A DNA stretch of 64,000 nucleotides from Lantana camara (taxonomy: Eukaryota; Streptophyta; Magnoliopsida; Lamiales; Verbenaceae), in assembly GCA_037501455.1 (NCBI GenBank), contig CM074856.1:97082001-97146000 (forward strand), read 5' to 3'. Under the pieces are notes generated by a model. The model made no database searches. It was not told the DNA's origin and saw nothing but the letters and a program-made list of their open reading frames with translations. A program made the position numbers and the translations under genes. Each line of letters opens with the position of its first letter. Within the stretch, counting starts at the first letter, position 1. Positions 4,058-59,262 of the stretch are shown in pieces.

Positions 4058-5938
4058 GTATGTATATTTTCGAATTCTCCATGATTATATGATGATTTTG
4101 ATCCATGAATTTCATCCTTTAGTTCAGATTTAATGTGAGTTTGGGGATATGCATGAATAGAAAGGGTTAGGGCTCATATCTTGCTTCCATGTTTTAGTTT
4201 GCTTTGTGGCTGATTTCTTGCTTATAAAATGAAGTATATGGACTTGTTTCTTTGATCATTTGATGCTTAACTGATAGTATATGATGTTTGGATGATTTTC
4301 TCTTGAGATCCTTTGATGAAATTATGAGATTTTGAGCCCCAAACGTAAGCTCGAAATCTGCTCCCCTGTATTGGAACTGTTGTGACGTTTTGTGCCTTGT
4401 TGCTTGAGTTAATGGCTTCCTTTTCGTGTGAATTTGGATGGAGATGTTGTGTACTAATTTCTTTACATGTTATCCATGCTCTTGCAAGCCTTTAGATCCA
4501 TTTTCAGCTCCTAAACCGAAATATGAAGCCTATATGTATACTATGTGCGAACTGAACTGCTGTCACGTTTTTGAGTTCAAATGATTGAATTCTTGCCTCC
4601 AATTTCGTGTGCTAAAGCTTGGTTACATAATATACATGTTTTTATATGAATGTACTTCGTTTTTCCCTCATTTCATGCTTTATTTTGGCCACAAACTTGA
4701 GTTCTTGCACCTTAGAAACTGCTGCTGCAAATCTGCTCATTTTCACCAAGTTGCTGTCACGTTTTTAGGGTTTGTTTGATGGATTCTTCCATCCAACTTA
4801 GTGTATTAATGCATGGTTATGTGGTACATATGTTACTCTGTGAATATGTTTTGTTTTGCCTTGATTTCATGTTCCATTTCAACCTCAAACATGACAATAT
4901 GCCCTGCTCTTCCCGGTTTGAATTGCTGTCAGAATTTTAGTCCGTTTGATGACTTCTTGAACTCCATTTCGTGTGAAATTTCATGGACATGAAGTATATG
5001 AGTTGTTCTACATGTTAGCTAAATGTTCTTGAGCTTTTATGCCCTGTTTTGCCCTGGTTTCATACGTCATTGCTGCTGCAAATTGGAGACATGGCATAGC
5101 TTAATTTCATTCCTTCCTTGCATCAGTTTTTATGGTTGAACTTTGAGATGTTTGTTGCTGCTTCTTATGGCATGTTAAGGTGGTGATTTAGTGTTCATTC
5201 CATACATGTTATATGTGTGTTTGAGGCCTAAGAATCCCTCCCCAGCCTGCTGCACGAAATGCCCTCCTTCGCCTTCAAAAATGAACTGCTGCGTTTTGTT
5301 TCTCTTCATGCCGAGGATCATGACGCGGCCGTGTCCAATTTGTGCTGTTTTCTGACACGGCCGTGTGAAGGCCTCGACTTGGGCATCTGATTTATTTAAA
5401 TTCGGACACGGCAGTGTCCGTTTCCTTTGTGTTTTGGACATGGCCGTGTCATGTGTCACGGTGGTGCCTCGGGGGAGCTTCTTTCGTCGTTTCGTTGCTT
5501 TTAATTGCTTTCTCTTGTCCCGTTTGTGACCTATATGCATTGTTAGCTTAATTTATTATGTGTTATCTTGTATAATATGAATTTATAGCTTGATTTGCTT
5601 GCTCATTTTCGAATTATGACTTCATATGTGCGATATGCTCCTCTAACGTGTGTTTATGACTTCTTGCCCTGTTTATATGCCTCACATGATCAATCCTTGC
5701 TCTTTATATGGTATGAAAACTTTGATAACATGTTGTATGATATGATATGCGTGTTATATGAAACTTATGGATTCGTTTGACGTGATTTATGAGACATATG
5801 ATTAAATATGAACTTGTATGCATTATATGTCAATTTGTTAAGCTTCATACTCATCACTCACATTCATATGCATTTGCCGAGCGTCAATATGGTTCATTTT
5901 GAGTCTAAGTTGTCCCTTGTTCTTTGTTTTGCTCTTAG
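4058..5938 (+). other. candidate LTR intron 1 (element A)
   Basis: The donor AAG|GTATGT at 4058 and the acceptor TTGCTCTTAG at 5938 would remove 1,881 nt that include all four palindromes. The same donor and acceptor positions, relative to conserved landmarks, occur in LTRs A', C and D. This is inferred from consensus sites only. Confidence 0.45.
5322..5451. repeat. four palindromes in two 32-bp pairs (5' LTR A)
   Basis: Palindromes of the GGACACGGCCGTGTCC type are centred at 5328.5, 5360.5, 5411.5 and 5443.5, giving distances of 32, 51 and 32 bp. The spacers between them are A/T-rich and do not resemble one another. Confidence 0.9.
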
Positions 5939-6306
5939 GTTTGTTCCGGTTGTGAGGAAGTGGTTCATTTGACTCCTTTTGGCCCGTTTTGTCCGGTTTG
6001 GTCGACAAGGTGAGGTTTTCTTTCCTTTTAGTTATGATGACCTAAAACCCTATTTGTATTTCGAACCCGCATGCGATATATATATGTATATCTATATAGA
6101 TATGTGTTTTGATATGTATTTTGGGGGTTTTGTCCCGTTTGTCAAGAGGCTTTGAAAACGCTTTTATATGTATCTAAGATCTATTTTCGTTTACTTTGTT
6201 AAGCTTTGATAAGTGTGTGTGAGTATAAGCATGGTATGACTTGTGAATAAGCTTCGTCTGGTAAGTGTGATAAGTATAAGAATATATGTCTGTTTATCTG
6301 TGTGAT

Positions 6307-6530
6307 GGGCCCCGGAGATTGTGGGTAAGGGAGACCCGGGACGACCATGGGGTCGCCGGTTACGACCCCTGTACACTTCTCCACCAATGGGAGACTTAGT
6401 TCTCCTATGCCGACGGAGCGCATTTTGGCATGGCCGTCGAAGGAACCGGGCGGGACCCTCCGGTTCACAAGTTTCGTTCTGTGGTGGGTTGAGAGGGGCA
6501 CCTCTCTTCCCCAAACGGTGTGGAGGTGGG
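6307..6530 (+). other. GC-rich conserved block in LTR A
   Basis: The block GGGCCCCGGAG...GGGAGACCCGGG...CATGGGGTCGCCGG is far richer in GC than its surroundings. Recognisable versions recur in LTR A' (22310), C (34607 and 44440) and, in looser form, D (47130), E (about 57350, reversed) and B2 (about 39770, reversed). Several overlapping open frames pass through it because it is GC-rich. I read it as a regulatory or RNA-structural module, not as coding sequence. Confidence 0.5.
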
Positions 6531-9625: not shown

Positions 9626-9628
9626 TTT

Positions 9629-9641: not shown

Positions 9642-9643
9642 TT

Positions 9644-12600
9644 TGTAACATCCCGATTGTTCAGATTTCCAGGTACGCCGTAACGAGAGGGTTTTACGTG
9701 CTTTAAATTATTTAATTACGTATTTGAATGTTATTTTATTGCTTATATGATTATTTGAATTGATATGAAATTAAACGTTTATATTTATGAACTTTGAATT
9801 TTAACTTTTAAGTTTGCATGCTCGTAATTTGCTCGTTATATGCCGGAATTCAATTCCGATTTTTGTGAAATTTTGATATGCGTGACATATGTGAGTTATG
9901 ATTATGCTTGCATGCTCGTTTTATGTTTTTGGGTTCGTTTGTCAAGGTTTTAAACCTTAAGTATTTGACGAGGGACATGAGGGCCTAACTAGTTTTAGCG
10001 TGCCTTGTGTTCCGGAGTCCTTAACTTGAGCTCGGGAATTCGGATTCGAATTCCGGAAGATGCGTCGGACTCGTCACGAAGAAAGGAAACTTTTGAACCT
10101 AGTTTGGTATTTTTCTAAGGTCATTTGGACCCCCGTTTTTTGCCCGGATTGATCAGCTTGTGTTATAGCCACCTTCTTTGACTAGTCTTGCAATTGTGGG
10201 CCCAAACTAACCTTACCTAAGCTTTAACCTTGGTTGATATGATCTTGATTCATCTCTCTCTTTCCCTTATCAGCTCCATTACGTTCAATATCCCAAAGAG
10301 AGAAGGAATAGCAGCTGATCCATGGAGAAAAGAAGAAGAAGAAAACCCCTTTCCCATATCTTGTGATTTTGGAGTCAAATCTCTTCCATATTTCATCAAC
10401 TCTTGAAGGTATGTATATTTTCAAATTCTCTATGATTATATGATGATTTTGATCCATGAATTTCATCCTTTTGGTTTAGATTTAATGTGAGTTTGGGGAT
10501 ATGCATGAATAGAAAGGGTTAGGGCTCATATCTTGCTTCCATGTTTTAGTTTGCTTTGTGGCTGATTTCTTGCTTATAAAATGAAGTATATGGACTTGTT
10601 TCTTTGATCATTTGATGCTTAACTGATAGTATATGATGTTTGGATGATTTTCTCTTGAGATCCTTTGATGAAATTATGAGATTTTGAGCCCCAAACCTAA
10701 GCTAGAAATCTGCTCCCCTGTATTGGAACTGCTGTGACGCTTTGTGCCTTGTTGCTTGAGTTAATGGCTTCGTTTTCATGTGAATTTGGATGGAGATGTT
10801 GTGTACTAATTTCTTTACATGTTATCCCTGCTCTTGCAAGCCTTTAGATCCATTTTCAGCTCCTAAATCGAAATATGAAGCCTATATGTATACTATGTGC
10901 GAACTGAACTGCTGTCACGTTTTTGAGTTCAAATGATTGAATTCTTACCTCCAATTTCGTGTGCTAAAGCTTGGTTACATAATATACATGTTTTTATATG
11001 AATGTACTTCGTTTTTCCATCATTTTATGCTTTATTTTGGCCACAAACTTGAGTTCTTGCACCTTAGAAACTGCTGCTGCAGATCTGCTCATTTTCACCA
11101 AGTTGCTGTCACGTTTTTGGGGTTTGTTTGATGGATTCTTCCATCCAACTTCGTGTATTAATGCATGGTTATGTGGTACATATGTTACTCTATGAATATG
11201 TTTTGTTTTGCCTTGATTTCATGTTCCATTTCAACCTCAAACATGACAATATGCCCTGCTCTTCCCGGTTTGAATTGCTGTCAGAATTTTAGTCCGTTTG
11301 ATGACTTCTTGAACTCCATTTCGTGTGAAATTTCATGGACATGAAGTATATGAGTTGTTCTACATGTTAGCTAAATGTTCTTGGGCTTTTATGCCCTGTT
11401 TTGCCCTGGTTTCATACGTCATTGCTGCTGCAAATTGGAGACATGGCATCGCTTAATTTCATTCCTTCCTTGCATCAGTTTTTATGGTTGAACTTTGAGA
11501 TGTTTGTTGTTGCTTCTTATGGCATGTTAAGGTGGTGATTTAGTGTTCATTCCATGCATGTTATATGTGTGTTTGAGGCCTAAGAATCCCTCCCCAGCCT
11601 GCTGCACGAAATGCCCTCCTTTGCCTTCAAAAATGAACTGCTGCGTTTTGTTTCTCTTCATGCCGAGGATCATGACACGGCCGTGTCCAATTTGTGCTGT
11701 TTTCTGACACGGCCGTGTCAAGGCCTCGACTTGGGCATCCGATTTATTTAAATTCGGACACGGCCGTGTCCGTTTCCTTTGTGTTTTGGACATGGCCGTG
11801 TCATGTGTCACGGTGGTGCCTCGGGGGAGCTTCTTTCGTCGTTTCGTTGCTTTTAATTGCTTTCTCTTGTCCCGTTTGTGACCTATATGCATTGTTAGCT
11901 TAATTTATTATGTGTTATCTTGTATAATATGAATTTATAGCTTGATTTGCTTGCTCATTTTCGAATTATGACTTCATATGTGCGATATGCTCCTCTAACG
12001 TGTGTTTATGACTTCTTGCCTTGTTTATATGCCTCACATGATCAATCCTTGCTCTTTATATGGTATGAAAACTTTGATAACATGTTGTATGATATGATAT
12101 GCGTGTTATATGAAACTTATGGATTCGTTTGACGTGATTTATGAGACATATGATTAAATATGAATTTGTATGCATTATATGTCAATTTGTTAAGCTTCAT
12201 ACGCATCACTCACATTCATATGCATTTGCCGAGCGTCAATATGGTTCATTTTGAGTCTAAGTTGTCCCTTGTTCTTTGTTTTGCTCTTAGGTTTGTTCCG
12301 GTTGTGAGGAAGTGGTTCATTTGACTCCTTTTGGCCCGTTTTGTCCGGTTTGGTCGACAAGGAGAGGTTTTCTTTCCTTTTAGTTATGATGACCTAAAAC
12401 CCTATTTGTATTTCGAACCCGCATGCGATATATATATGTATATCTATATAGATATGTGTTTTGATATGTATTTTGGGGTTTTTGCCCCGTTTGTCAAGAG
12501 GCTTTGAAAACGCTTTTATATGTATGTAAGATCTATTTTCGTTTACTTTGTTAAGCTTTGATAAGTGTGTGTGAGTATAAGCATGGTATGACTTGTGAAT

Positions 12601-13649: not shown

Positions 13650-15701
13650 TGATGGAACTAGTATATGTGGATTCCCGTCAGCCCAAGCTTCCCCGGTTCA
13701 CCAAATACACTAAGTCCCGTGCCCCCATTCATTGTGAACATTCATTTCTCGCCAAAACTTTTGGGTAGGAAATTCAATTTAAAGGCTTAACGTTGAAAAC
13801 ATTGTCCCGTTAAAAGACTCGATATAGATATATATATATCTTTGGCCAAAATCTTGCACATTAGGTATATTGGGGTCATATCCTTTAACTAATAGAAGAA
13901 AAACCCACCTGGTAGACAAAAGAACCCGACAAATACCTCACTGGTCAGCCTCGTCTCCCACTGGATCAATATTTGTGTGACAAAGGTAATGTGAGACTCA
14001 ATTATGACCACATTTGACGCTCGGCAATGCAATGACATGCTATGGAATTCTTGAAATGTAATATTAGATTCAAATATGTTCATGATGGCCATAGGATGAA
14101 ATTAAGCACATAATTCATCAAATTTCATTCAATATACGATAAGATCGTATTCATTCACGTTCATAGCGTTTATAACTTTCATACTTTTCATTCTTGCATT
14201 CATAAAACTTTCTAGGTCATAAATCAATCATAATTCAAAGCTTAACCAATTCATGTTGCATATAAACATATCACAAATATGAATAACAACCATTACATAA
14301 GCATTAAAGAGATCTTCCAAGGCTGCCAATTCAAATGACATGGCCATGTTGCATTTTCAAAGGAATTGGACACGGCCGTGTCCGAGGTTTAAAAATTAAA
14401 ATTCCCAAGTCGAGGGCTTGACGCGGCCGTGTTGAGTTTTTAAAGCATTTGGACACGGCCGTGTCCGATTTTCTGAAAATATTTTTCGCAAGTCGAGAGC
14501 CCAACACGGCCGTGTCCGTTTTCAGTTCAAAGCTGACACGGTCGTTTTGAAAGAGAAAACAGAGCAGAAGCGCTGTTTCTGCATGGGAAAAGCTTTGGAA
14601 AGCAGGGGCTGCAACAAGGAAGCTCTTAGGTACACTTAGACATGATTTCAATCCACATAATTCATACGAATCATGCAATTCATTCATAGTTACAAGAATT
14701 CACACAAAAAGTTGGCAAAAGATCATCCAATTCCAAGCTTTCATTTATGGAAGCTTCAATCTTCAATAATGGCAAATCATACTATAATCAACCAACACCA
14801 AATTCAAGCAAATAGAAATGGTAAGGAAGCTTCAAACATCATCTTTCATGCATCAATTCTCAAACCAAACCGAGAGAATCCAATGTTCAAGAACCAACCC
14901 CAAATATGCTATCCAAGCCCTTATACAAAACACATGAATCCTTCACTCATGCCAAGCTATTCATAGATGAAAAGATAGAGAAGGAGATGGAGATTATAAA
15001 TCATCAATTACCTTGGAGAAAGCTCGGATGGAAATTAAACTTGAGCTCAAGGTTTGGATGATCAACAATGGAGGGTTTTCTCTTGCTCCTTGTGGAGATG
15101 ATGATGATCGAGATTTGTGGAAGCATAATTTAGAGGCATTAGGGTAGGATACGGGTTGCTCCAAGTCCGGTTTGTTTAAGAAAAAGGTTCAAACAAGTTA
15201 TAAAGTCGAGGCCATGGAAAGGTTCGTTGTCGAAGGTTCAAATGGCATCAAAATGGTATAAGGTCAAGTCCAAAGGATAGGTAACAACGAAATAAGTTCA
15301 ACGCCGAAAACGGATCTCGGTTTCGAGGTCTGGAGCTCAAGATATCGCGAAAACCGTTCAGGGTTGCCTATTATTCAAATAGGTCCCTAAACTTTCAAAA
15401 AGTGGCAATTAAGCCCAAACTCAATTTCCAATTGAGTCCAAAACATTCAAAAAAGTTACAATCAAGCCCACGGATCACACGACACACGTAATTTCATTCA
15501 ATGATCACCAAATTCACGAAATTCACATTCTCACAATTTCATTCATATATTCAAATCTCACACTGGAATTCATACGAAATTTAAACAAATAATTCGAATT
15601 ATAAACGAATTCAATTAATAAATCAAAATACAAAATCATATAATTAAATGTAATTGCGCACGTAAAACTTACCTGCACGTGTGAAAACGCGGGGCGTTAC
15701 A
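13650..15701 (-). mobile_element. solo LTR B1, second part (5' end of the LTR)
   Basis: The sequence resumes after GAAAT (13645-13649), the target duplication of element A. It aligns in order with the uninterrupted solo LTR B2 (for example ACTAGTATATG...CCCGTCAGCCC in both). It ends in GCGGGGCGTTACA at 15701. It carries three palindrome pairs at 14337-14548. No protein is supported; frames through 14331-14687 run across the palindromes only. Confidence 0.85.
14337..14548. repeat. six palindromes in three 32-bp pairs (LTR B1)
   Basis: Palindromes of the type GGACACGGCCGTGTCC are centred at 14343.5, 14375.5, 14426.5, 14458.5, 14509.5 and 14541.5. Centre distances are 32, 51, 32, 51 and 32 bp. 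The second and fourth are perfect 16-bp palindromes and the others have one or two changes. This is the longest regular array in the window. Confidence 0.9.
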
Positions 15702-16410: not shown

Positions 16411-18740
16411 ATACCTAAGTCTTAACCTTGGTTTATATGACCTTGATTCATCCCTCTCTCTCTCCCTTATCAGTAGCATTTCGAACCACACACCCAAGAG
16501 AGAAGGAAAAGCTGCTGCAATGGAGAAAAAGAAGAGAAGAAAGAAGACCCCTTTCTCTTGCCTTGTGATTTTTGAAGCAAATTTTCTCCATACTTCTTCA
16601 TATCTTAAAGGTAAGTATATTTGTGTATTCCCCTCTCTTTTATGTATCTTTTGATCCATGAAATCCATGTTTTAATTCAGATTTAATAAGGGTATGGAAG
16701 CTTGCATGAATAGTTAGGGTTAGCTCATATTTTGAATCCATGTCTTAGCTTGAGTTTAGGGTTGATTTCATGCATCTTTGGTGATTATATGAGCTTCTTT
16801 GCTTCCATTCTTGATCTATACTTCATGCTAGAGGTGTTAGGGTTGATTCTCCATTGATAACATGAATGAAAGCTTGAGTTTTTGGGCATGAAACTGGAAA
16901 TTCGAACTGCTGCAAAACTGCTCATTTCTTACCGAACTGCTGTCATGTTTTTTAGATCAAATGATTGAATTCTTGCCTCCAATTTCGTGTGCTAATGCTT
17001 AGTTATGCAATATACATGTTGTTCTATGAATGTTCTTCGTTTTTTCCTGATTTCATGCTTTATTTTGGCTGCAAACTTGAGTTCTTGGACCTTAAAAACT
17101 GCTGCGAATCTGCTCCTTTCTCACCAAGTTGCTGTCATGTTTTTGAGGTTTCCTTGATGGATTCTTACATCCAATTTCGTGTATTAATGCATGGTTATTG
17201 TCACACATTTTACTCTATGAATATGTTTTGTTTTGCCTTGATTTCATGCTTCATTTCAGCCTCAAACGTGAGAATATGCCCTGCTCTTCCTGGTTTGAAT
17301 TGCAATCAGAATTTTAGTTCGTTTGATGACTTCTTGAACTCTATTTCGTGTGAAATTGCATGTACATGAATTATATGAGTTTTTCTACATGTTAGCTAAG
17401 TGTTTACAAGCTTTCATCCCCTGTTTTAGCCCCAGACTTGAAGAGTATGACCTGTTGCATTCCTTCCTTCTTTGTGACAGATTTGGTGCATGAGTTTTGA
17501 GCTGCTTGTTGCTGCATTTTAAGGCATGAATTGGTGATGTTTTGGTGTGTATTTCATGCATGATATGTGTGTGTTTGAGGCCTAAGAAATCCCTCCAAGA
17601 GTTGCTGCAAACTGCCTGTTTTGCCCTGATTTCATGCCCCTTTTAAGCTGCGTATGTGAGCTTGAACGTAACTTAATTTCTTTCCTTCCTTTCAACGTTT
17701 TGTGTGGCTGTTTTGATGCTCAAAAGCTGATCATATGAATTTGTTTTGTTTCCTTTTTGATACATGATACTTGGTAGATATGTTATGGATGAATTCTCCT
17801 TGAAACCTTTTGATGAATTTCTTTGAGCAAGAATATGTGATGCATCTCTTCCCTCTCTTCACTTTAGCTTCGGTTCTTGTATGAATTAGGGCATAAACCT
17901 TTGAATCTATGATGCATATATCTTGTATATTTTGTTGGTTTGATGTTAGTATGGTTTGGTTTTGGTTCTTGGTGAGTTTGAAGGCTAAAATCTAGTTTTG
18001 GTCAATGGAAGCGGATCCACGGGCGTGGATTTTTGGCTTTGATCAAATCCACGGTCGTGGATAGGACTCTAGCAGCAGGGACGTTTCTGTCCCCAGATCC
18101 ACGGCCGTGGATCTCCCCTTTTGAAAATATCCACGGCCCTGGATCTGGAAAACTTGAGTTTTCTTGCCCGAACTCTATTTCTTTGTCCGTTTTGTTCGTT
18201 TCCCTCCCCTACCTTATTCCTAAGGTGTTGAATACTTGTTCATACGTATGATATGTGATACTATGGCTTGTCATTGCTTGAATTTGGTATGTTTTATCTT
18301 AGAATTATGTGTTATATGCGTTGTGTTAAGTTTGTGAATTCGTTGGACGTGAAATGTGCTTTATATGATCTAAGTGCTCTCTTACATGCATGTGTGACTT
18401 CCTAACTTGGTATTTGACATGTATATGAAGCTCGTGAGCATGTTTAACGTGGAAAATGTGAGCTATGTTTCGACGTGATTCAATATGACCTAATGTGACT
18501 TAAGTGTTAATTTCATTTCATTCTTTATGCATAATTTGCATCCATACGCATATGCCGAGCATTTAATTGGTTCATGTTAAGTCTAAGCTTGTCCTTTGCC
18601 CTTTTGTTTTGTTCTTAGGTTTGTCTCGAGGTTGAAGAGGTGGTTCCTTTTGTTTGGTTTGGTCGACAAGGTGGAGTTTTCTTTCCTTTTAGCTATGATG
18701 ACCTACAATATTACGTGCGTTTAAGCCCGCATGCGATATA
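16411..18740 (+). mobile_element. Tekay-type LTR A', first part
   Basis: From 16411 the sequence matches the inside of LTR A beginning at about 3867, so the first 500 or so bases are missing, cut off by LTR F. The backbone is close to A (for example AATTCTTGCCTCCAATTTCG in both). It has a donor TTAAAG|GTAAGT at 16611, four palindromes of a different sequence type at 18015-18144, an acceptor at 18618 and a second donor at 18671. It stops at about 18740 where minus-strand LTR A'' begins. Confidence 0.8.
18015..18144. repeat. four palindromes in two 32-bp pairs (LTR A')
   Basis: Palindromes of the type ATCCACGGCCGTGGAT are centred at 18022.5, 18054.5, 18104.5 and 18136.5, distances 32, 50 and 32 bp. 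The arms (ATCCACGG) differ from the GGACACGG arms of LTR A although the rest of the LTR is closely related. Confidence 0.9.
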
Positions 18741-20577: not shown

Positions 20578-20828
20578 TGCCACTTACTATTTGGAATCAA
20601 CATAATTTGCAAGGGAAATAAATCACGTAATAAAAGTGTTAGCATCAAATTCTTATTAAATACATAATATATATGTATATATACCGCACGTAGATTGCAT
20701 GCATCTTATCAAACCCCTACACTATATATGCAAGTAGCTACTTAACGAAAAGAACAAATATTGCAATTTCCTCCACCAAGCACGGTTGTCAGCTGCAATC
20801 TCTGAAATTAAAAACCAATTCGAAAGTA

Positions 20829-20960
20829 GGACACGGACGTGTTGGTCTTTAGTTCAAAATGGACACGGTCGTGTCCGATTTTATAAAATTTTCGCAGCCA
20901 TACTCGAAGATTCAACACGGCCATGTCCATTTTTCAAACAAATCGGACACGGCCGCGTTG
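20829..20960. repeat. four palindromes in two 32-bp pairs (LTR A'')
   Basis: GGACACGG-type palindromes are centred at 20836.5, 20868.5, 20920.5 and 20952.5, distances 32, 52 and 32 bp. Each has zero to two changes from the perfect form. Confidence 0.88.
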
Positions 20961-31700: not shown

Positions 31701-31848
31701 TTATTGATGTATATAATTCCTTGTTAATTGCAAATTGCTTTTATATAATCGGAGATTGATGTAATTGATCTTGCTCTACTTGCTCATTATGTGATAACTA
31801 TATAAATATGTTTATAATTGTTCTCTTGGATTATTATCCTGTGTGAGT

Positions 31849-31985: not shown

Positions 31986-32011
31986 TTGTTTTAAGTTCCG
32001 AACTCGAGAGT

Positions 32012-32048: not shown

Positions 32049-32463
32049 TGTAACGCCCCAATTTTTCTTGTTGTGCATTAAGTGACATTATATGAACGAT
32101 ATTCTTATATGTTTATGTGAAAATATATGTGATATTATTCTCAAATTATGAATTATTGCATAATTTGTATTTAAGTGATACGTTAATTAATTGTCGAACA
32201 TGACTTAATTAATTATATGACTTTACTTGATCTATTTCCATAATTTGAGGATTAAATTGCAAGAACCTTTCTTTGGATTTAATTGATCAAATTTCATGAG
32301 TTAGAACTTATTTGCATCACTTAAATTCTTGGAGGATTGTTGTGCAATTTCCTTCCTTCCTATCTCCCCCAATCACGATATAATATATACACACCTACAT
32401 ACATTTCCTCCTTCATTCTTTATACAAGAACAAAGCACAAACATCTCTTTCTCTCCTCCCTCC
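32049..32463 (+). mobile_element. 3' LTR of element D, first part
   Basis: The first 415 bp of the 3' LTR match 26841 onward closely. The LTR is broken at CCTCC (32459-32463), one copy of the target duplication of element C, and resumes at 45577. Confidence 0.9.
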
Positions 32464-35400: not shown

Positions 35401-35744
35401 GTATTGATTTGAATGTATGAATTACGGGACAGGTTAGGACAGGTTCGTGGATTTAGTTGAACCCGTTTGTATTTTGATTTATGCTATATTCGGGATTAGG
35501 GATCTATGTTAGTTGAACCCGTCAACTGTTGCTTTTAATTTAAGTTTATTTGTGTGATTGCTTCCGCATACGCTTTCGTTTTGTTGGTTGGTTTAATTTG
35601 CAGGGTCTACGTTCCGCCTAGCTTAGGTGCGTGTCTGTCTGTCACCCGTTTGTCTCTGCTCGGTTCATGTACTGGTTTCCCATCTCGTATGTGGATTGGG
35701 CTTAGGTGCGGGGGATGTGGTGAGCCACCGTGCGGGGTGCTACA
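32464..35744 (+). mobile_element. 5' LTR of element C
   Basis: Contains the donor CCAAG|GTAAGC at 33016, palindromes at 33298-33419, acceptor-like TTCAG/TCCAG at 34148 or 34157, the donor ATAAG|GTGAGG at 34240, the GC-rich block from 34607, the hairpin CAGTC-TGTGT-GACTG (35217-35231), the acceptor TTGCAG at 35260, and the arms GAGCTAGGCGG (35279-35289) and CCGCCTAGCTT (35614-35624). The order is the same as in LTRs A and D although the sequences have diverged widely. Confidence 0.9.
33298..33419. repeat. four palindromes in two 32-bp pairs (5' LTR C)
   Basis: Centres are 33304.5, 33336.5, 33380.5 and 33412.5, distances 32, 44 and 32 bp. The first three share the core ACACGGCCGTGT. The fourth (GACACAGCCGTGCT) has lost a CpG. 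Confidence 0.9.
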
Positions 35745-35752
35745 TCCTAAAG

Positions 35753-35772
35753 TGGTATCAGAGCATCAGGTT
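35753..35772 (+). promoter_or_regulatory. primer-binding site of element C
   Basis: TGGTATCAGAGCATCAGGTT begins 8 nt after the 5' LTR. Its first 12 bases are the classic initiator-tRNA-Met complement used by Tekay elements. Confidence 0.85.
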
Positions 35773-45571: not shown

Positions 45572-45576
45572 CCTCC

Positions 45577-48075
45577 AATATCGATCCAAGCCAAGCAAGG
45601 AGAAGCCAAGGATTATCTTCCATAATCACCAAGAATCAAGCTCCATACCATCTCTTTCTTTTTCCCCTTCATCTCCTCCATCTTCAAGGTGAGAGCATGC
45701 ATATATCTTTGAGGATTCATAATAGCAAAGTTAGGGTTTTGTGGTTCTTTGCATTCCATGAGATTATATGAATCATATATGATGGTCTTGGGTTGGTTTT
45801 GTGCATCTTAATCATGAGTTACATGAAGTTGAGCTTGGGTGATCATTTGTGTACATAAGGGTTTCATATGAAGATTTTGATGAATTAATGTATGATATCT
45901 TGGTTCTTCTGATGCCTAAGTGATATATACGACTCATATGCATGTTATATGTTGATTTTGAGATGTTTTATTTGTTGTGGTATGGTGTGGGAAGGGTTGG
46001 GAGCCATTCCCGCGAATCCCCTATTTTTCCCTTGCTATTTTTCGGACAGAACCTTCCCAAACGCCCGTTTGGGCTTCTAGTTATAGCACCAAACGCACGT
46101 TTGGCACTGTTACAGGAGGTTTTCACACGCCCGTTTCTGCTTTCAGACCAATTTTCAAACGGGCGTTTCTCCCTCATCCCAACTCCAAATGACCTGATTT
46201 TTAAAGAAACCTAAACCTCTTAAAGTCTAGAACAACCTCAAATTGGAATCATCTTAATACATTTTGTAAATTGTGAGATATAATCAATTCTTTTAGGTGT
46301 CGCCACTTTCCCGACAAACTGCACTCGCCTAACTTCAAGCTTTTGCCATTTTCTCCTCGCTTTGAACTAGAAAACGAGCCATATACCATCGGAAAGGTCT
46401 TTGTGTCTAGTTTCATTCCCAATAAAAAAAACTAAATTCTCACTTCTACAATTAAAGATATTCCAGTTTTCCCTCAGCATGTACGTTTCCTAAAATTATC
46501 CGTTTTTACCAAACTTCACCAAAACCTTTCTTATTGCATTCCTTTCACTCTCTTGGCTCCCATATGTGAATTATATGATACATGTACTTGATTAATTGAT
46601 AAGTATGCTCCAACTTGACCCTTCTTAGTACTTAATTGCTCAAACGTGATTGTGTGATTCCATGTCTTACATGAATTGAACTTGAATTAATTGAAGGATA
46701 TGACTACATGATTTCTTGATACTAATTTACTCTCTTAAGTGTTAATTGGTTCTCATACATGTTTAAATGTCCCTTGATTGCTAATTTGTTTGGGTATTAA
46801 GGTGTTACATGAGCTTTGTCGTGCCTCATACTTGGTCTCATATTGAGTCTTGTCTCACGATTTCACGTTATTTCCTTTCTTGTCCAGTTCTTCTCCAGGG
46901 CGGAGATCATTGATCATTTGGACATTTTGTTGTATCCTTGTCTTGTTCCGTCGCTCGTCAGGTGAGGTTTAATTTCTAGATATATAGAACCCATATAACC
47001 CTATGTGATAATTTAAGCCAAAATGTATCTATATATCTATAGTTTTCCAAACTCTATCGATTTTCAACTGATTCCATTGAACTGATTGATTGATTGACTG
47101 TTTTGGCGAGTAACGCATGATCACTTTGGGCCCGAGGGTAGTGTATTGAGCCAACCGAGGAAGCAAGGGCTGACGGGTAACTCTTGCACTATCTTCGTAA
47201 CCTTGGGATGACCCCTGAACCCACTAGGAGATTAGTGGGGGAAGGAGTTCCGGGCATAGGGACTCATGAACCCTATGCTCAATGAGATTGGGTGGTGGGG
47301 CCTTGCTATCCCACCATCACCGGAGGGAGAAGGAGTCACTGAAACTGCTACTTGTGCACTGTAAATTGATTGTTTGATCACCTAATCACTTAATAACTGA
47401 ATGATTGTACACTGTCGGAGTAAGGTTGGAGAATTGCCCTCACTCGACGGAACACTAATTGATTGATTGAAATTGATTATAGTGTCTAATCTGATAGTTG
47501 TAATCTCGGGCGAGTTCTAAATGTTCTATTCTTGAACTTATATTGTTTTCTTTTATAAAACCTTACCCGAGGTTATGACTTGCATGGTAATTGCACTAAT
47601 ATTTATTTATAAACCCTCGCTCAGTCTTTCATAGACTGACACCTCACACTTTTCAGGTTTTCCAGTGTTGGCGCTAGGCGGGAGTCGAGTTAGTCCAGTG
47701 GTCTTTATTTCGAGTCTAGCATTGCCTTTTCATGTTCTTATTATTTCCGCCTTTATCATGTTAGGGATCTTGTAACTTTTGGAGACTTATGCATGTATTG
47801 AATATTGGAGATGATAATATATTGATGTTTGAGCTAGAATAGGATGAGCATTTGGATATTTTGTATATGATAATGAAATGTTAGTGTTTATAGTTCCGCT
47901 TTCGAATTTTCATGTATTGGATCGAATTGAATTGGGGTCTAGTCCCGCCTAGCTAGATTGTTTCTTGCATTGTCACCCGTTCGCTATAGTCTTAGTTCAT
48001 GTATGGATCATCCATTTCGTATGTGGACTGAGCTATAGTGCGGGGGTGTGGTATCTCGGCGTTCCAAGTGCTACA
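45577..48075 (+). mobile_element. 3' LTR of element D, second part
   Basis: This completes a 2,914-bp LTR ending GTGCTACA. It carries the donor CAAG|GTGAGA at 45689, palindromes at 46056-46168, an acceptor TTCTCCAG at 46898, the donor CAG|GTGAGG at 46962, the hairpin TCAGTCTTTCATAGACTGA (47621-47639), an acceptor TTTTCAG at 47656, and the arms GCTAGGCGGGA (47673-47683) and TCCCGCCTAGC (47943-47953). The first 1,945 bp of the full LTR equal the 5' remnant exactly in length. Confidence 0.9.
46056..46168. repeat. four palindromes in two 32-bp pairs (3' LTR D)
   Basis: Centres are 46064.5, 46096.5, 46130.5 and 46162.5, distances 32, 34 and 32 bp, the same as in the D 5' LTR. The first is CCCAAACGCCCGTTTGGG. 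Confidence 0.88.
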
Positions 48076-48517: not shown

Positions 48518-50233
48518 CCGTTCTTCGCGCTCGAAGATATGTATGGGACTAATGGGCCCCGACACCCTAGCCCGGTAAGTCATGAGCGACATCTGGAGCG
48601 GGGGCGGAAAGATGCTAGCAGGAAAGAGCACAGGAAATCTCCTCCCGGCCCCCGCCGTTTCGAGTGCATCCCCCTTACAAGGACGAACTCGAAAGTTTAC
48701 GCCTTGTCCGACAAGAAACTCTTCAAAAGGCCTACGAAGATGAAGGAAACTGAGGCTTTGAGATGCTCAAACAAATACTGTGCTTTCCATAAGCAAAGGG
48801 GGCATGATACGGATGAATGCCGCCAGCTGGAGGTTGAAATTCAAAGGCTCATCGCTGGGGGCCACTTGAAGGAGTTTGTCAAGATGTTGGAGCGTTATGA
48901 TGACTGTTGCAACGAGCGCTCAAGAGAGAGAAGGAGGAGCCCCTCGCGTTCAAGAAGCCAGCGGGGGCGAGGCACCCCAGAGAGTAGCTATCGAGGTAAA
49001 GGAAAGGCCCCCGAACAAGAGAATGCCCCTTTTGCGGTCATCAACATAATAGCAGGAGGTTCATCAAGAGGGGATTCCAACGCTTCCCGACGCCGATATA
49101 TCCGTAGTTACGATCAGCGCCTCTCGGCGCCCAAATCAGTTTATGCCATTCAAGAGGCAAAAAATCAGCACTCGAAAGAAAATGATGTAATAGGATTTAC
49201 TGATAGTGATTTGGAACATATTGTAACACCCCATGGGGTCAGTGAAACCTCTGACTGCCCCATGGTGGTTAGCTTGGATGTCAACAATCACATTGTAAAG
49301 AGGGTGTTAGTGGATAGTGGAAGCTCTGTTAACGTTTTGCCCTACACCACGTTCCAAAAGATGAATGTTACCAACACCTCGCTCGAACCACTCAAAATAG
49401 CTCTCATTGGCTTTGGAGGTTCTGAGGTTGTCCCACGAGGGCAAACTCGCTTGGCCACTTCATTCGGCCGAGCCTCACAGCGTAAAACGCTCATGGTCAC
49501 CTACGCCGTGGTGGAAATTGATATCCCATATAACATCATAATCGGGCGACCGGCTCTCGTGGATATCAAAGCGATTATCTCCACTTACCATCAGAAAATC
49601 AAGTTCCCCACCCCCGAGGGCGTCGGAGAAATTCTGTGCAACGTACGAAAAGCCTGGGAATGCTACATGCTATCTCTCAGAAAGCCTAAAACAGAGAAAG
49701 CATTTCAAATTGGGTCCACCAAGAAATCCGTTGATTTCCCCAATCTGGACGAGGATGGTCCCGTGGGTAAGAGGGCCAAATTGAACAAGAAGAAGAACAA
49801 AAAGAAAGATCCCCACAACAAAGATACCCCCGAAACTGCCCCGCCAGGGATAGTTGGAGAGTCTTCCTCTGAAGAGAACGAGGGTGGGCAAGGGGAGCCT
49901 GGGCATAACGGTCACCTGACAGGGAAGAAAAGAGCGCTTGAACTCCCCCTTCCAAAAATAAGGATCGAGCCCTCAGAAAAATTCCTTACTATTGAGATAG
50001 AGCCAGGGAACAAGGATAAAACTACCCAGATTGGGTCCAACCTCTCTGGACCCTCACAGATCATGATGATAGACTTTCTCAGAGAAAATATTGATGTCTT
50101 TGCATGGAAAGCCTCGAATCTTACCGGGATTGACCCAAGCTTCATAGTCCACAGGCCCAATGTGGACCCATCTTTTAAGCCAATTAAACAGAAGAAGCGG
50201 GATGTGCACGGCTTTCGGAAGATAAGTTATTGA
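48518..50233 (+). pseudogene. gag-pol: Tat-lineage gag C-terminus, protease and start of reverse transcriptase
   Basis: One long frame covers three parts. First is a zinc knuckle of the Tat form (CAFHKQRGHDTDEC, about residue 85). Next is a basic Ser/Arg-rich linker, then an aspartic protease with the active-site motif VDSGSS (about residue 260) and a later IIIGRPAL flap-distal motif. After a charged linker (about residues 390-480) the reverse transcriptase begins (ENIDVFAWKASNLTGIDPSF). A frameshift near 50220 ends the frame before the catalytic region. The protease motif looks intact, so the main damage is the shifts and stops on either side. Confidence 0.85.
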
Positions 50234-50891
50234 AGAGGAAGTTAACAAGCTTCTTGAAGCTCAGTATATCGAGCCCATACTGTATTTGGAGTGGTTGTGT
50301 AACGTGGTACTGGTGCCCAAGAGCGCAAATAAGTAGCGCATGTGCAATGACTTCACGGATCTTAACAAGGCTTGCCCTAAAGATCCTTACCCATTGCCCC
50401 GTATAGACCAACTGGTGGACTCAACTGCGGGCTGCGAACTCATGAGTATGATGGATGCCTTCCAAGGCTACTATCAAATCTTTATGGCTCCGGAAGACCG
50501 CCCCAAAACTTCATTTGTTGTTCACTTGGGTGTACATTGCTTCTTGGTCATGCCTTTTGGACTCAAGAACGCTGGGGCCACTTATCAACGCCTCGTCAAC
50601 AAGATGTTTGAGAAAGAAATTGGAAGATCCATAGAAGTGTATGTCGATGATATGATTGTTAAGAGCGAGCGTCAGGACTCGCACTTGGAGGATCTCAAGC
50701 GCACTTTTGCCATTTTGCGCCAGTATGGGATGAAATTGAATCCTTCAAAATGTACTTTTGGAGTGCGAGGAGGAAAATTCTTGGGCTACATGGTCAGCCA
50801 GAGGGGAATTGAGGCCAACCCAGAAAAAATCAAGGCTATTTTGGACATCCCATCCCCTCCTAATCTCCGGGAAGTACAAGTGCTGGTATAG
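50234..50891 (+). pseudogene. pol: Tat-lineage reverse transcriptase
   Basis: The domain reads DFTDLNKACPKDPYPLPRID, MMDAFQGYYQI, VMPFGLKNAGATYQRLVNKMF and the catalytic YVDDMIVKS, then FLGYMVSQRGIEANPEKI. These are standard Ty3 reverse-transcriptase motifs in the Tat flavour. An in-frame TAG just before 50340 and a TAG at 50889-50891 bound the open part. The enzyme would copy genomic RNA into cDNA. The catalytic Asp pair is kept, but the frame is broken both sides. Confidence 0.88.
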
Positions 50892-52082
50892 AAAATCATT
50901 TCTTTAAACAGGTTTATCTCGCACACGGCGGACCGAAACCTCCCTTTCTTCAAAATTCTGCGCAACGCTCAAAATTTTGCTTGGACTGAGGAATGTGAGA
51001 AGGCGTTGCAGGACATGAAGGCTTACCTTTCGAGCGCTCCGCTCCTGACCAAACCAGTTGAGGGAGAGAAGCTATTCATGTACCTCTTCGTTTCAACCGA
51101 GGCAACGAGCGCAATTCTAGTAGCTGTACGGGAACGTAAGCACTTGCCTGTTTATTATTTGAGCAAAACATTACAACTCATCAATGCATCACGACGGTTG
51201 AGGTCTTACTTCCAGGCACACTCAATAACTGTCCTCACTGATCAGCCTCTGAAGGAAGTGCTGTCCAAACCGGATGTATCGGGAAGACTGATAAAATGGG
51301 CCATTGAGTTGAGCCAGTTTGACTTAAGTTTCGAGCCCAGAGCTACTATACAAGCGCAGGTTGTAGCGGATTTGCTGGTTGAACGTTTCGGTTTAGAACC
51401 TACTGTTCTAAAGAACGACGGTTTATGGGTCCTGCACACAGATGGTTCCTCAACCTCTCAAGGGGGAGGAGTAGGGGTAACCCTTAGAGACCCCAACGGA
51501 ATTGAGTTAGACTTTGCAATCAGGTTGGATTTTCAGGTCACCAATAACGAGGCAGAGTATGAAGCCCTTATGCAAGGATTGAAAATTGGTTTTCAAAATG
51601 GAGCCTCCAGGATCACCGCTTATGTTGATTCACAGTTAATTGCGAGCCAGATTGAAGGAACTTATGAGGCTCGAGAAACCACCATGGTGCAGTATTTGAG
51701 CAAAGCCAAGGAAATTATCGGGAAGTTCAAAGAATTCCATTTACTCCAGGTCCCACGGGCCGAAAACGAGCGCGCTGACGCTCTATCAAAATTTACCTCG
51801 GCCTTGGAAGGTATCAGTGAGCGATTCGTTACATTTCTTAGAACTGAAGAGCCTCTGATAAGAGAGCAGGGCACCAAGAGAGTGGTAGCCATGATTGATC
51901 CGCACGAGCCTTGCTGGCTTGATGATATTATCAGATTTCTTAAAGATGGCATTTGTCCCACTGACAAGGTGGAAGCTCGGAAAATCAGAAATAAAGCCCC
52001 TCGGTTTTCTTTGGATTCTGAGGGAAAGTTATTCAAGAAGTCATTTCAAGGACCCCCGATGAGGTGTCTAAGGCCCTCGTAA
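50892..52082 (+). pseudogene. pol: Tat-lineage RNase H and second, archaeal-type RNase H
   Basis: The retroviral-type RNase H comes first (to about 51330). Its middle appears shortened, because LSKTLQL joins directly to INASRRLRSYFQAHSI where Tat relatives have about 20 more residues. The second RNase H follows at about 51430-51800, with HTDGSS, NNEAEYEAL, VDSQLIASQ and NERADALSK, giving the Asp-Glu-Asp-Asp set. This additional archaeal-type RNase H is a hallmark of the Tat lineage. The frame stops at 52080-52082, after which the integrase is in another frame. Confidence 0.88.
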
Positions 52083-53148: not shown

Positions 53149-54199
53149 AAGTTCTCTAAAAATGATGATGTAACAATCCCACTAATGGGCTCTATGTACT
53201 ACTTCAAATCTCAAGTAAGTTGCAATACATTCTCTTGAATATTTCTATACTACTACTTTTAAATTATGCAAGTGGATAAGACCCACATCCCTCGTTTCTA
53301 CGAGCGTGGTTGGCAATCAATTTCAATACGCACAATTTTATTACACATGGGTTACGCCTGCCAGCGCTTTACTCTACATGGGGGGACGCCCTCATAAGGA
53401 TAGCCTGGTAACGCTCACAACCAACATGATGAATCGAAGAAAAACACAAGGAAAACCCTAGTAGGCCTTGGTTGTTAGTCACAACGCCTTGCGCTCGAAA
53501 ACGGGATAGCTTGCAAGTCTAAAAAATCAACTGGTACAATCGTGCTCGTTCAACAGTAACGTTATTCGGAATGAATTAACTCAAATCTTGAACAGCAGGG
53601 CGTTCTCAAGGGGGTGATCCCCGCGCTTGTTCAAAGGCAGCCGATTTTTACAAAATTCTTGTTAAGACCAAGCTGAAAGTTCTCTGAGAAAGAAACTCAC
53701 ACGCTTACCTGAAGGTTTGAATGGATTTATATGTGCGAAAATTTTCACAAGTCTTGAACGAGGGCAGCCTCTCAGTAAGACCCTCGTAGTTACTCAAGAC
53801 TTAGTAAAATTTTCTAAGTGTAAAAGCAAAATTTTCACAAGTCTTGAACGAGGGCAGCCTCTCAGTATGACCCTCGTAGTTACTCAAGACTTAGTAAAAT
53901 TTTCTAAGTGTAAAAGCAAAAATTTTCACAAGTCTTGAAAGAGGGCAATCTTCCAGTAAAACCCTCGTGCTTACTCAAGATTTAGCTAAAACAAGGCATA
54001 TTTTACCAAGCATGTTGCACATAATCTTAGCATTATTATGAGATTTTATTACAACAGGCACAAGGTAAAAATTCCACGATCAAGAAAATAAAGAGAGACA
54101 TCATTATGGAAAAAGAAGAATTTCATTGATTGGGCCTTTCGCCAAAGTTACAAAACAAGGACCCGTGGGCACTTAAAATTCTTACAAAAAAAAACTAAG
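53149..54199 (+). mobile_element. untranslated region between Tat pol and the antisense gene
   Basis: No protein is supported. The stretch holds three 90-bp tandem repeats (53738 to about 53999) and A-rich sequence near 54050-54200 that would lie just beyond the stop of the antisense gene. Such repeat-bearing 3' regions are common in Tat elements. Confidence 0.7.
53738..53999. repeat. three 90-bp tandem repeats in the Tat 3' region
   Basis: Units start at 53738, 53828 and about 53918 with AAAATTTTCACAAGTCTTGA. The first two differ at only one or two positions and the third is more diverged. Each unit contains GAGGGc...CCCTCG and CAAGTCTTGA...TCAAGACTTA, so it can fold on itself. Confidence 0.95.
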
Positions 54200-56430: not shown

Positions 56431-56433
56431 GAG

Positions 56434-59262
56434 CGAACGGGAGACAAACGCACACGCTATGCTAGGCGGATCTAACTCGACAAACTCAGAGCGCGGAAGC
56501 AATTCAAACATTCAAACAAGATAGCGGAAGCATTTAAATCAACATTCAAAACAAGTGACGGGTTCAACTAGCATAGATACCTAGTCCCGAATATCAACAA
56601 GCATAACAAGTGACGGGTTCAACTAGCATAGATCCCTAATCCCGAATAATAGATCAACATAAAGTAATGATCATCAAGTGCCACAAGGGGCCGAATACGA
56701 GTGCCACGCAGGGCTACCGAATAGTAAAGTATAATCTCAAGTCTACACGTCAAAACATAAGTAAAGTGTATGAAAGACAAATGCAACTAGAAAAGCTAGA
56801 CCGACGAAGTGTAACTCAAAGGACTCACTCCCGCCTAGCAAACGCCAATAGACCTGCAACTAAAAGTGTAAATGAGGGGTCAGTCAACTTGACCGAGTGA
56901 GGGGGCTAACGCACACCCACTATATATATATAGAGCGTAGCACATATCAGAAGGGTGGACTCATGAACCGGAGATAGGTGTTGTACACCAAAGACATTTC
57001 CAAAAGTACCCAAAAGATAGATATATAAGACTTAGAAAACATTTCAGAAACTCTATCTCGATTCATGATTCCCAGACAAAATAGATCACATGCTCGGCGG
57101 GTACGAGCTTCCAACCTTTACTCCTCAGAACATATCAAAACATAGAATACAAAAATCAAATCCAACCGTCACACTAATGATGGAGGAGATGTACCGTCCC
57201 CAAACCATCCATAACAGACATACCCTCAAGGGGTAGTGAACCCACAAGAGTCCTCCCCGGCTGTACACCGAAGGCTCAAGATATCACGCCTCCCCTATCT
57301 CCCTGAGTCGCGTAATGATATCTCAAATGGAACTACGCACAGGTATATCCCCGACGGCCCTAACAGTCCCGGGGGCTCCTTACCCATAGCTCCTCGGATC
57401 CACATACATACATACATACAGATGCCAATATTTCATGGCCAACTCGCTACAGAAACATAACATAACTTTTTCAAAACAGCTTACATATGCTTTCATATCT
57501 AATTTTCCCAAAACAGAGCTGATTCACAAGGTCATAAACATATCATATCCAACACATACATATTTATAATAGATATACTCGCATGCAAGGGTTGAAATCA
57601 GCATATTAAGGCCATAGGTCGCATAACTATACAAAATCCTAAACCTCACCTCGTAGTAGTAGAGTCTGAGAGTGTGAAGGGCCAAACACTCTAAACCTCG
57701 GGCTCATCGGCACCACCAAACTCTATGACAAGACATACAAAAGCCCAAACTTAGACTCTACATGAACCAAGTAAGACGCACGGCGTACAAAGTATGAATG
57801 ACATGCGAAAATGGAATGATGTTTATCAAATTGGTCACAAGGGTCAATTCAATTATTCATGTAAATCATGCAAGTAATAAAGTATTAAGGTTCAGAGATG
57901 CATTCCAAGTCATATCGGATCATACAAGTCAAGTAGCAACTCAAACGAATCAAATACGCACGAAAAAGCCAGTAGAAAAGGTCACAAACGTATGGGAACG
58001 ACCATTCCCATGCACAACATAGCATGGGAATGGGCCTTCCCATGCCCAAAGCCAGCGAGACTGGGAACGGCCGTTCCCAGTCCAAGCATACATGGGAACG
58101 GGAGTTCCCATGTTCGCCGCCAAAACTCAAACCGTAGCCCGGAAGGGCCGTTTCGGGCTTAAAGCACAAACGGGAACGGTCGTTCCGGCCATAGATCTGG
58201 AGCAGAAACTGGACAGTTTCGGGAAGAACAAGGGAAACACCAAAAATCATCAAAACAACACGAAATCTACCATAGAACATCACGAAATTCAAGTATATCA
58301 TCATATAAATCATGCTTAGCATCAAAACATCAATTAATCCAAGTTTAGAAAGGTTTTGCCCAAAATCTCAAACACCCATTTCATGAATTTCAAGCCCAAA
58401 CATGAAGATATGAACCCCTAATCTTCCATACACGAATTTCCAGCAACTAAGACACATAAGGAGCACTCAAATCATCAAAGCTTACTCAAGGAATTCAAGA
58501 TCTCATCATTCAATTCATGCTAACAATTTCATGCTTCAATCCAAGAATAGAAATGAAATACTCATCAAAAGAGATCCAAAGCTTACCTTGTCATGTGAAG
58601 GAATGAGGAATCAAAGAATACGAGCTCTTAGAATGAAAGATGGTTCAAGTCTTGATCTTCTCTTGAAATTTCTCCATGATTCTCTTTGAAGCTAACTTGT
58701 GTGGTTTGAAATGAAATGAAAAGGGAATAAAGCTATTTATATGGTGGCTAATAGTTTTAGGTCAAGGTTAGGGTTTCCAAGATATAATATGAGGCTAAAG
58801 GTTCAAATAGGATTTGGGCTCAAATAAATGACTTTAGGTCCAATAAGTCAAGATTAAAAGGTTTAAGGTCTAAATGGTTTCCGAAAAATATAAAGTAAAT
58901 TCCGTTGGACTCGAATCACCGATTCAAGTCCAATGGTGGTGTCGGAATTCGAATTCGAATTCCTGAGCTCATATTGGTCCCGAATGACCCAAACTCACCT
59001 AATTCAAGTTAGGCCCAAACACACCAATAGGTCCAAGTCCTATTTAAATCCAATTCCAACAATTAATTTAAATCCATCCAAGTTCCATTCTTAAGTTGTC
59101 ATGCAAGAATTCATATTTTACCATTTTAGGTTTTTGTTAATTAAGTCACATTTGCAACCAAAGTTGGAATTAAACACATAAAAGGGAATTAAATCACATA
59201 AGTTCATAAGGTAAACTCTCTCGTGGCGCATACCTGTACGATCTATCGGACGGGGCATCACA
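56434..59262 (-). mobile_element. 3' LTR of Tekay element E, 3' tip missing
   Basis: On the minus strand the LTR starts at 59262 (TGTGATGCCCCG) right after the polypurine tract and runs to about 56434. About 95 bp that should include GTGCGGGGGATGTGG and the terminal TTACA are absent, so the junction with the Tat antisense gene is a deletion point. It holds the palindromes at 57992-58188, a GC-rich block near 57350, a hairpin at 56878-56894, and the arms TGCTAGGCGG (56460-56469) and CCGCCTAGCA (56831-56840). No gene is supported within it. Confidence 0.85.
57992..58188. repeat. six palindromes in three pairs (LTR E)
   Basis: Palindromes of the type CTGGGAACGGCCGTTCCCAG (58061-58080, perfect 20 bp) are centred at 58001.5, 58033.5, 58070.5, 58101.5, 58147.5 and 58179.5. 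Distances within pairs are 32, 31 and 32 bp, and between pairs 37 and 46 bp. The fifth has a changed outer arm (GCCCGGAA...TTTCGGGC). Confidence 0.9.

Follow-up and report, generated by a model that had tools for sequence, protein, structure and literature searches.

Palindrome pairs with changing arms and arm-dependent spacing in long terminal repeats of Ty3/gypsy elements from Lantana camara

The window, a stretch of 64,000 nucleotides from Lantana camara (assembly GCA_037501455.1, contig CM074856.1, forward-strand positions 97,082,001 to 97,146,000), consists of nested Ty3/gypsy elements with long terminal repeats (LTRs), and many of these LTRs carry short palindromes arranged in pairs. An earlier note, made from the letters of the window alone, had reported such pairs in eleven LTR copies, and all eleven arrays were found at those places. 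Each LTR carries four to six sites, and the arms are common to the sites within one array. In the following list, positions are those of the window and the centre of a site is the base left of the dyad; the elements are denoted by letters.

5320–5451, plus strand: A 5' LTR array; two pairs, arms TGACACGG/GGACACGG; centres 5328/5360 and 5411/5443; spacings 32, 51, 32
11672–11803, plus strand: A 3' LTR array; two pairs, ACACGG arms; centres 11680/11712 and 11763/11795; spacings 32, 51, 32
14335–14549, minus strand (sense by homology): A' array; three pairs, ACACGG arms; centres 14343/14375, 14426/14458 and 14509/14541; spacings 32, 51, 32, 51, 32
18014–18144, plus strand: B1 array; two pairs, arms ATCCACGG; centres 18022/18054 and 18104/18136; spacings 32, 50, 32
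20828–20960, minus strand (sense by homology): A'' array; two pairs, ACACGG arms; centres 20836/20868 and 20920/20952; spacings 32, 52, 32
27735–27849, plus strand: D 5' LTR array; two pairs, arms CCCAAACG; centres 27743/27775 and 27809/27841; spacings 32, 34, 32
33296–33420, plus strand: C 5' LTR array; two pairs, ACACGG arms; centres 33304/33336 and 33380/33412; spacings 32, 44, 32
40908–41060, minus strand (sense by homology): B2 array; two pairs, arms GGGTCGCG; centres 40916/40949 and 41019/41052; spacings 33, 70, 33
43126–43250, plus strand: C 3' LTR array; two pairs, ACACGG arms; centres 43134/43166 and 43210/43242; spacings 32, 44, 32
46056–46170, plus strand: D 3' LTR array; two pairs, AAACGC arms; centres 46064/46096 and 46130/46162; spacings 32, 34, 32
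57993–58187, minus strand: E LTR array; three pairs, arms TGGGAACG; centres 58001/58033, 58070/58101 and 58147/58179; pair spacings 32, 31, 32

The pair spacings were also as reported: 21 of the 24 pairs have 32 bp between centres, both B2 pairs have 33, and one E pair has 31. Because the two LTRs of an element are copies of each other, the 24 pairs are not independent events. Four degenerate partner sites were placed outside the scans, the one at 20920 (A'') by eye and those at 27809 (D 5'), 33412 (C 5') and 43242 (C 3') by register. An 83-bp repeat is present in A'. Tandem duplication of the pair unit was rejected as a full explanation of the arrays, because the linkers of different pairs within one LTR mostly differ and the linker between sites 3 and 4 is common to four arm types.

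The pairs were compared with simulated sequences in the window and in a blind sample of the same 1.27-Gb genome (200 kb in total, made up of twenty 10-kb stretches placed at round coordinates of five long contigs). In the window, an arm-scored scan for sites with at least 6 of 7 arm pairs and a GC fraction of at least 0.4 found 69 sites, compared with a mean of 34 in 20 Markov resamplings. Ten distances fell at 31–33 bp, compared with a total of one over the 20 resamplings; one of the ten, 58179–58212, lies outside the pairs of the earlier note. The blind sample contained 135 sites with a CG core (mean of 71 in simulations), and 19 of its 36 consecutive distances between 12 and 100 bp lay at 31–34 bp (12 at 32, 4 at 33, 2 at 34 and 1 at 31), compared with 0–2 in each of 25 simulations. 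The remaining detected gaps in the blind-sample arrays ranged from 26 to 84 bp, the longest of which may conceal a degenerate site. The two scans rule out chance or simple repeats as the origin of the pairs, and the comparison with shuffled controls that had been proposed came out as predicted, with far fewer pairs in simulated sequence.

Arm types, linkers and spacing across the genome

A conserved block of 33 bases follows the arrays of C and D.

33443–33475, plus strand: conserved block in the C 5' LTR, just 3' of the array
27872–27904, plus strand: its counterpart in the D 5' LTR

Allowing at most three mismatches, the pattern of this block was found at 6,554 places in the genome (3345 + 3209), and the reversed control gave none. 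We read 35 block copies, comprising 30 genome copies together with those of C, D and one blind stretch. The arm types were GGTCGCG (12 copies), ATCCACG (8), ACACGGC (5), ACACGCC (3) and AAACGCC (3); CGAACGG, CTACCCG and GTTAACG occurred in a single copy each, and one more copy had no array. Eighteen of the 35 share a common register, with at least two scanned sites no more than 2 bp from −138, −105, −62 and −30 relative to the block, and these 18 copies span five arm types (GGTCGCG, ACACGGC, ACACGCC, AAACGCC and CTACCCG). At least one pair at 31–34 bp was found in 21 of the 35 copies, and the rest have lost, fused or degenerate sites. In copies L032, L037, L045, L046 and L050, the two sites of a pair look fused and the linker lost, as by recombination between palindromes of one array.

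A constant C/G core had been claimed, usually CGGCCG. A shared core does exist, but it is better written CG-NN-CG: among 88 sites read in the block lineage, in a scan that favours CG-containing sites, CGGCCG occurred in 34 and CGCCCG in 21, and CG-NN-CG was found in most others.

The arms change over linkers that are kept. In the 20 of the 35 block copies with sites 3 and 4 in register, the linker between these sites had a mean identity of 0.67 between different arm types (shuffled, 0.50) at an arm identity of 0.39, and copies with the same arm type had a linker identity of 0.85 and an arm identity of 0.82. Among the types GTCGCG, ACACGG, AAACGC and ACACGC, the last represented by one copy, linker identity was 0.64–0.78 and exceeded the shuffled 95th percentile in all six comparisons. 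Arm identity among these four types was 0.26–0.77 and lay below linker identity in five of the six comparisons, the exception being ACACGC with AAACGC. An alignment-based identity table was left unused because gaps around the sites inflate identity.

The flanks gave a similar picture among 42 arrays chosen for having at least one distance of 31–34 bp. Array pairs sharing a flank stretch of at least 400 bp at 80–95% identity had different arms (fewer than three of four alike) in 26 cases and like arms in 13, and flank stretches of 400–1400 bp that are 80–92% identical can share only none or one of four arm positions. For instance, the flank of D 5' (AAACG arms) is 83.6% identical over 929 bp to that of L030 (GTCG arms), and L034 and L049 share a flank at 87.4% over 870 bp with none of four arms alike. 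A and B1 share a left-flank stretch at 82% over 694 bp with two of four arms alike. The row pairing W_27743 with W_33304 at 97.6% is an artefact of nesting and was ignored.

A tree of the downstream flanks was used to follow the arm labels, which were assigned by eye (the scan gave no site in L023 or L039, and L047 lacks an array). Placing the nine labels on this tree takes 11 changes (minimum possible 8; shuffled mean 20.9), or 10 when L047 is omitted, so the labels cluster. The GGTCGCG label requires at least four changes over the starred branches, indicating that the same arm stands on separate flank lineages, and sister rows with 99/100 support carry different arms. The tree includes four long rows (L025, L047, L039 and L040), and the flanks may have recombined. 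The arms had been described as unrelated between types; this does not hold in the sense of arbitrary sequences, as LTRs whose flanks differ can bear one and the same arm type. The other part of that claim, that palindromy, pairing and spacing are kept while the arm letters change, is borne out far above chance and in many genome copies.

The spacing depends on the arm type. In the 42 selected arrays, pairs with GTCG arms were spaced at 33 bp in 18 of 23 cases, at 32 in 4 and at 34 in 1, and pairs with other arms at 32 bp in 38 of 43, at 31 in 2, at 33 in 1 and at 34 in 2, one of which is a between-pair gap. Genome-wide pair searches were read from coordinates among the first 50 distinct places listed for each arm, which come from the start of one contig, include near-copies and are not independent. 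With ACACGG arms (range 23–35; 13,572 matches in total, control 110), the 50 listed pairs had 32 bp in 29 cases, 34 in 16, 33 in 2, and 26, 31 and 35 in one each. With GGTCGC arms (range 24–38; total 4,177, control 258), 33 bp was found in 37 listed pairs, 34 in 9, 37 in 2 and 38 in 2, and none fell at 24–32. With GGGAAC arms (range 24–38; total 18,309, control 3,094), the listed pairs had 32 bp in 20 cases, 26 in 15, 31 in 8, 25 in 3, 36 in 2, and 28 and 35 in one each, two of the 26s sharing their right end with a 32. Arms of the type GGGAACGG have a spacing of 31–32 with a secondary mode at 25–26. A one-base shift of spacing with arm type occurs in both pairs of L022, L026, L027 and L031. 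Thus a single fixed spacing of 32 bp is not a property of the pairs: GGTCGCG arms are mostly at 33 and then 34, and ACACGG arms mostly at 32 and then 34.

Two other arrangements were seen. A further type with GAGACACGG or CGACACGG arms has a spacing of 34 bp (contig C1, 3630964–3630997 and 3905594–3905627; L015, 7029–7063). At 15720078–15720141 of contig C1, two ACACGG pairs of 32 bp adjoin with a common middle site, giving three evenly spaced sites.

Host elements and position of the arrays in the LTR

The class of the elements and the place of the arrays in the LTR were examined from coding matches and signal-like sequences.

59258–63991, minus strand: internal pieces of E, with protease and reverse transcriptase, RNase H, integrase zinc domain, integrase C-terminal SH3 domain and a weak chromodomain, in Ty3/gypsy order
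About 32465–35745, plus strand: C 5' LTR (the C LTR is about 3.3 kb)
35753–35764, plus strand: primer binding site TGGTATCAGAGC, exact, just after the C 5' LTR
58581–58741, minus strand: predicted TATA box of the E LTR (TATAAATAG; TATAAATAGC), from 58741 downwards, with a putative splice donor AAG/GTAAGC at 58589
27171–27372, plus strand: TATA-like TATAATATATA of the D LTR at 27171 (by eye) with a putative splice donor CAAG/GTGAG at 27364, upstream of the array

The chromodomain match of E has an E-value of 0.00011 and 22.5 bits, below the Pfam cut-off of 25.1 bits. The gag frame of C matches Retrotrans_gag and Ty3_capsid. We take the sequence TGGTATCAGAGC to be a primer binding site for Met-tRNA, a feature expected of a Tekay/Del chromovirus. 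A version with one mismatch follows the A 5' LTR, at 7301; when up to two mismatches are allowed, the six matches in the window are within chance (mean 4). Judged from these sequence features, the elements are likely to be Tekay (Tekay/Del chromovirus) elements. A, A', A'', B1 and B2 are connected with C, D and E solely by the homology of their LTRs.

The E array starts about 560 bp downstream of the TATA box. In A and C there are several TATA-like strings and no single box was settled. A donor-like CAAGGTRMG stands upstream of the array in 11 of the 35 block copies, and a donor-like AAG/GTRAG was observed upstream of the array in the C (33012–33020), D and E LTRs. These signals suggest that the arrays probably lie in a transcribed leader, perhaps in an LTR-internal intron of that leader.

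A second palindromic repeat, similar to GAATTCGAATTCGAATTC, is common to otherwise different LTRs and lies upstream of the arrays, at 32696–32715 in C and 58944–58963 in E; it also occurs in 5 of the 35 block copies, two of which are C itself. Element C seems to be nested in the 3' LTR of D, as 26841–28785 matches 32049–32463 and 45572–47106, the two parts of the second D LTR that flank C. A 29-bp tandem repeat, TGAGAGACGGGGTTCTCTCATTCCTTGTT, occupies 31848–31991 in five copies, each of which contains a small inverted repeat. A 90-bp tandem repeat (53738–53991; 2.8 copies, 92% matches) lies downstream of plus-strand gypsy-like pol pieces (48518–52082).

Interpretation of the pairs and relation to known systems

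We propose, with a probability of roughly 0.5, that the pairs are docking modules for a DNA-binding protein that binds as two dimers and whose specificity switched repeatedly. A sequence-specific protein would bind the LTR with one dimer on each palindrome, and the two dimers would lie about three helical turns apart. The half-site would measure about 7 bp, consisting of a variable arm of 4–5 bp and a CG that hardly varies, and two free bases would separate one half-site from the other. The protein, which might be encoded by the element or come from a diverse host family, would be needed by the LTR for transcription or for relief from silencing. Its specificity would have switched several times, upon which the sites of an LTR lineage would have been remade to the new arm under selection for continued binding, and the pair spacing would have settled at the value suiting that arm. 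The best sign of a protein geometry is that the spacing changes by one base from one arm type to another, simultaneously in both pairs, and the replacement of arms over kept linkers may best be read as a change in the specificity of the protein. Of the readings offered in the earlier note, namely two dimers on one face of the DNA, a paired RNA hairpin and a chromatin signal, the first fits best, because the favoured spacing changes with arm type and because the mismatches of neither strand point clearly to RNA wobble; the RNA hairpin is not supported.

The wobble preference was read from mismatches within sites. All 42 selected arrays were oriented by homology, after matches inconsistent in side or strand had been dropped; 2 of the 425 remaining edges disagree. 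On the sense strand, 82 distinct sites contained 19 G.U, 24 A.C and 34 other distinct mismatches, and counting per site copy gave 23 G.U, 40 A.C and 47 others. An RNA helix from the sense strand would tolerate G.U, and the roughly even numbers of G.U and A.C are taken as support for double-stranded DNA. With G.U not in excess among the 82 distinct sites or in the block lineage, a sense-strand RNA hairpin was rejected. Complementarity was also compared within and between sites. At inner positions, complementarity within a site is about equal to that between sites of the same array, as expected of a shared motif; within a site it is higher at the 8th base (0.62 vs 0.44) and the 9th base (0.50 vs 0.38), indicating that the symmetry belongs to each site. 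This difference disfavours a long hairpin formed by pairing of site 1 with site 2.

Several observations weigh against the protein proposal. The block-lineage mismatches lean to A.C (15 distinct, vs 5 G.U), which is unexplained. In 40 arrays, the 8th base from the centre gave 92 matches vs 74.7 in permutations (reached in 0 of 2000), and the 9th base 72 vs 59.7 (16 of 2000); in 59 sites of 14 hand-picked arrays, the numbers were 33 vs 27.1 (42 of 3000) and 31 vs 24.6 (92 of 3000), respectively. A plain motif of two half-sites does not predict such site-specific outer complementarity, which remains as a residue favouring hairpin-templated copying or a structural need at the site edges. Other spacings also occur, with 34 bp at 16 of the 50 listed ACACGG places and 25–26 bp at 18 of the 50 listed GGGAAC places, and the GAACGG-arm pair of L034 (sites −124 and −101) is spaced at 23 bp, about one helical turn below 33. 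The register is not universal: the eight ATCCACG copies have at most one pair, at −121/−89, and the arrays of D, L025, L034 and L048 are shifted from it. The between-pair distance is also fairly constant in the block lineage (mostly 42–44). Homology of the linker was not shown for L040, a single copy whose linker exceeded shuffles in none of five comparisons, and hardly for L034 (one of five). All 42 arrays belong to one homology network, built ignoring the side and strand of matches, and part of the constancy may be due to descent.

The outer complementarity would be expected if structure is what counts, with the palindromes folding into leader-RNA hairpins or DNA cruciforms and feeding small-RNA silencing or RNA dimerisation and packaging. 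The arms could then drift freely as long as pairing is kept, and the shared arms within an LTR would permit pairing from site to site or copy to copy, as a barcode of self-recognition. The D and E arrays follow a TATA box and a putative splice donor and are thus probably in the transcribed leader, which is consistent with this reading, and the palindromes of maize Sireviruses have been reported with an excess of small RNA and strong predicted structure (PMC10760457). However, G.U is not in excess (19 vs 24 A.C overall; 5 vs 15 in the block lineage), a result that leaves DNA cruciforms untouched, strict and arm-dependent spacing is not expected of independent hairpins, and free drift does not predict the same arms on separate flank lineages. 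We consider this explanation unlikely.

The single homology network would also follow if the pairs have no function. Sites, spacing and register would then be inherited, and the arms would be kept alike by copying between palindromes, through quasi-palindrome correction and template switching in reverse transcription, and swapped between families by recombination. Hairpin-templated correction would yield the site-specific outer complementarity, and the five copies without the stretch between the sites of a pair look as if produced by exchange. However, exchange of blocks would bring the linkers along, yet in four arm types the linkers stay as the arms change. Neutral insertions and deletions would blur a linker of 16–17 bp, yet the spacing is held while the other gaps of the blind sample vary widely, and in the four copies mentioned above both pairs have a spacing that moves by one base with the arm type. 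A purely neutral origin seems improbable.

Rapid divergence of non-coding motifs has been described for VANDAL elements, whose target motifs evolve together with the binding protein VANC, an anti-silencing factor (PMC5735166; PMC10398659). The two systems resemble each other in that a plant transposable element carries repeated non-coding motifs and that these diverge quickly among closely related families. In VANDAL, unlike here, the element's own protein is known, and the main text of PMC5735166 contains neither the word 'palindrome' nor the word 'spacing'. The fast concerted change of the present arms resembles the arms race suggested between VANDAL targets and RNA-directed DNA methylation (PMC10398659). 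In a corresponding explanation of the present arrays, the arms are targets of sequence-specific silencing by small RNAs or a repressor and are altered to escape, with palindromy kept by a requirement for structure or CpG. If escape were the only force, loss of the sites would be expected rather than rebuilding of several sites at a set spacing, and we regard this explanation as very unlikely.

The closest known relative of the paired palindromes, going by the passages on the motif in PMC2829016, is found in the LTRs of Sireviruses (Ty1/copia). The repeated motif (RM) described there is a CGG-CCG palindrome located upstream of the TATA box, is called Sirevirus-specific, and is present in 3–14 copies per 3' LTR (Table 3 of that paper). 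A related motif has thus been described, contrary to the statement in the earlier note that no description was known. In both cases, as far as those passages go, short LTR palindromes are alike within an element and differ between elements, and both show the CGG-CCG core that most of the Sirevirus motifs have. The present arrays differ in belonging to Ty3/gypsy rather than Ty1/copia, as shown by the domain order of E and the gag matches of C. They form strict pairs at 32–34 bp, whereas fixed pairing is not reported in the section on the RM in PMC2829016; their core is CG-NN-CG, and arm replacement leaves the linkers in place. In D and E, the only LTRs in which a TATA box was placed, the arrays lie downstream of it, and not upstream as in the Sirevirus passages. 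The criterion for the RM given there is at least eight copies per element, in a count that adds linker copies, and here there are four to six palindromic sites per LTR. The LTRs of Del (Tekay) elements have been reported to contain plastic CpG islands, which were not identified in the eudicot group of that paper (PMC4029996, in the passages on these islands). The likeness is that the LTRs of this lineage have a CpG-rich stretch in their 5' half that varies; palindromes, pairing and arm types are not mentioned in those passages. A search by titles and the beginnings of abstracts found no report of LTR palindromes paired at a fixed spacing.

Elements of the Tekay type form some of the large repeat families in plant genomes, and the activation and silencing of their LTRs are poorly understood. 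In the present case, a cis-module whose layout is largely constant and whose sequence is exchangeable occurs in thousands of natural copies within one genome. If the cause is RNA structure or copying errors, the arrays would show cleanly how dispersed 14-bp sites can change in concert with the intervening DNA unchanged. If the arms mark a changing trans-factor, the factor could be retrieved by the arm sequences, the history of the switches could be read from LTR trees, and the question of why close retrotransposon families do not activate one another would become testable. A more specific form of the protein proposal, which we put forward tentatively and regard as somewhat doubtful, is that a family of dimer-of-dimers proteins, encoded by the element or the host, reads the pairs as a lock reads a key, and that lineages repeatedly changed the key, with the arm and the spacing (32, 33 or 34 bp) reset in place. 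If this is true, the arms would be a readable barcode of which element answers which trans-factor, and such changes would provide a route for autonomous and non-autonomous families to separate.

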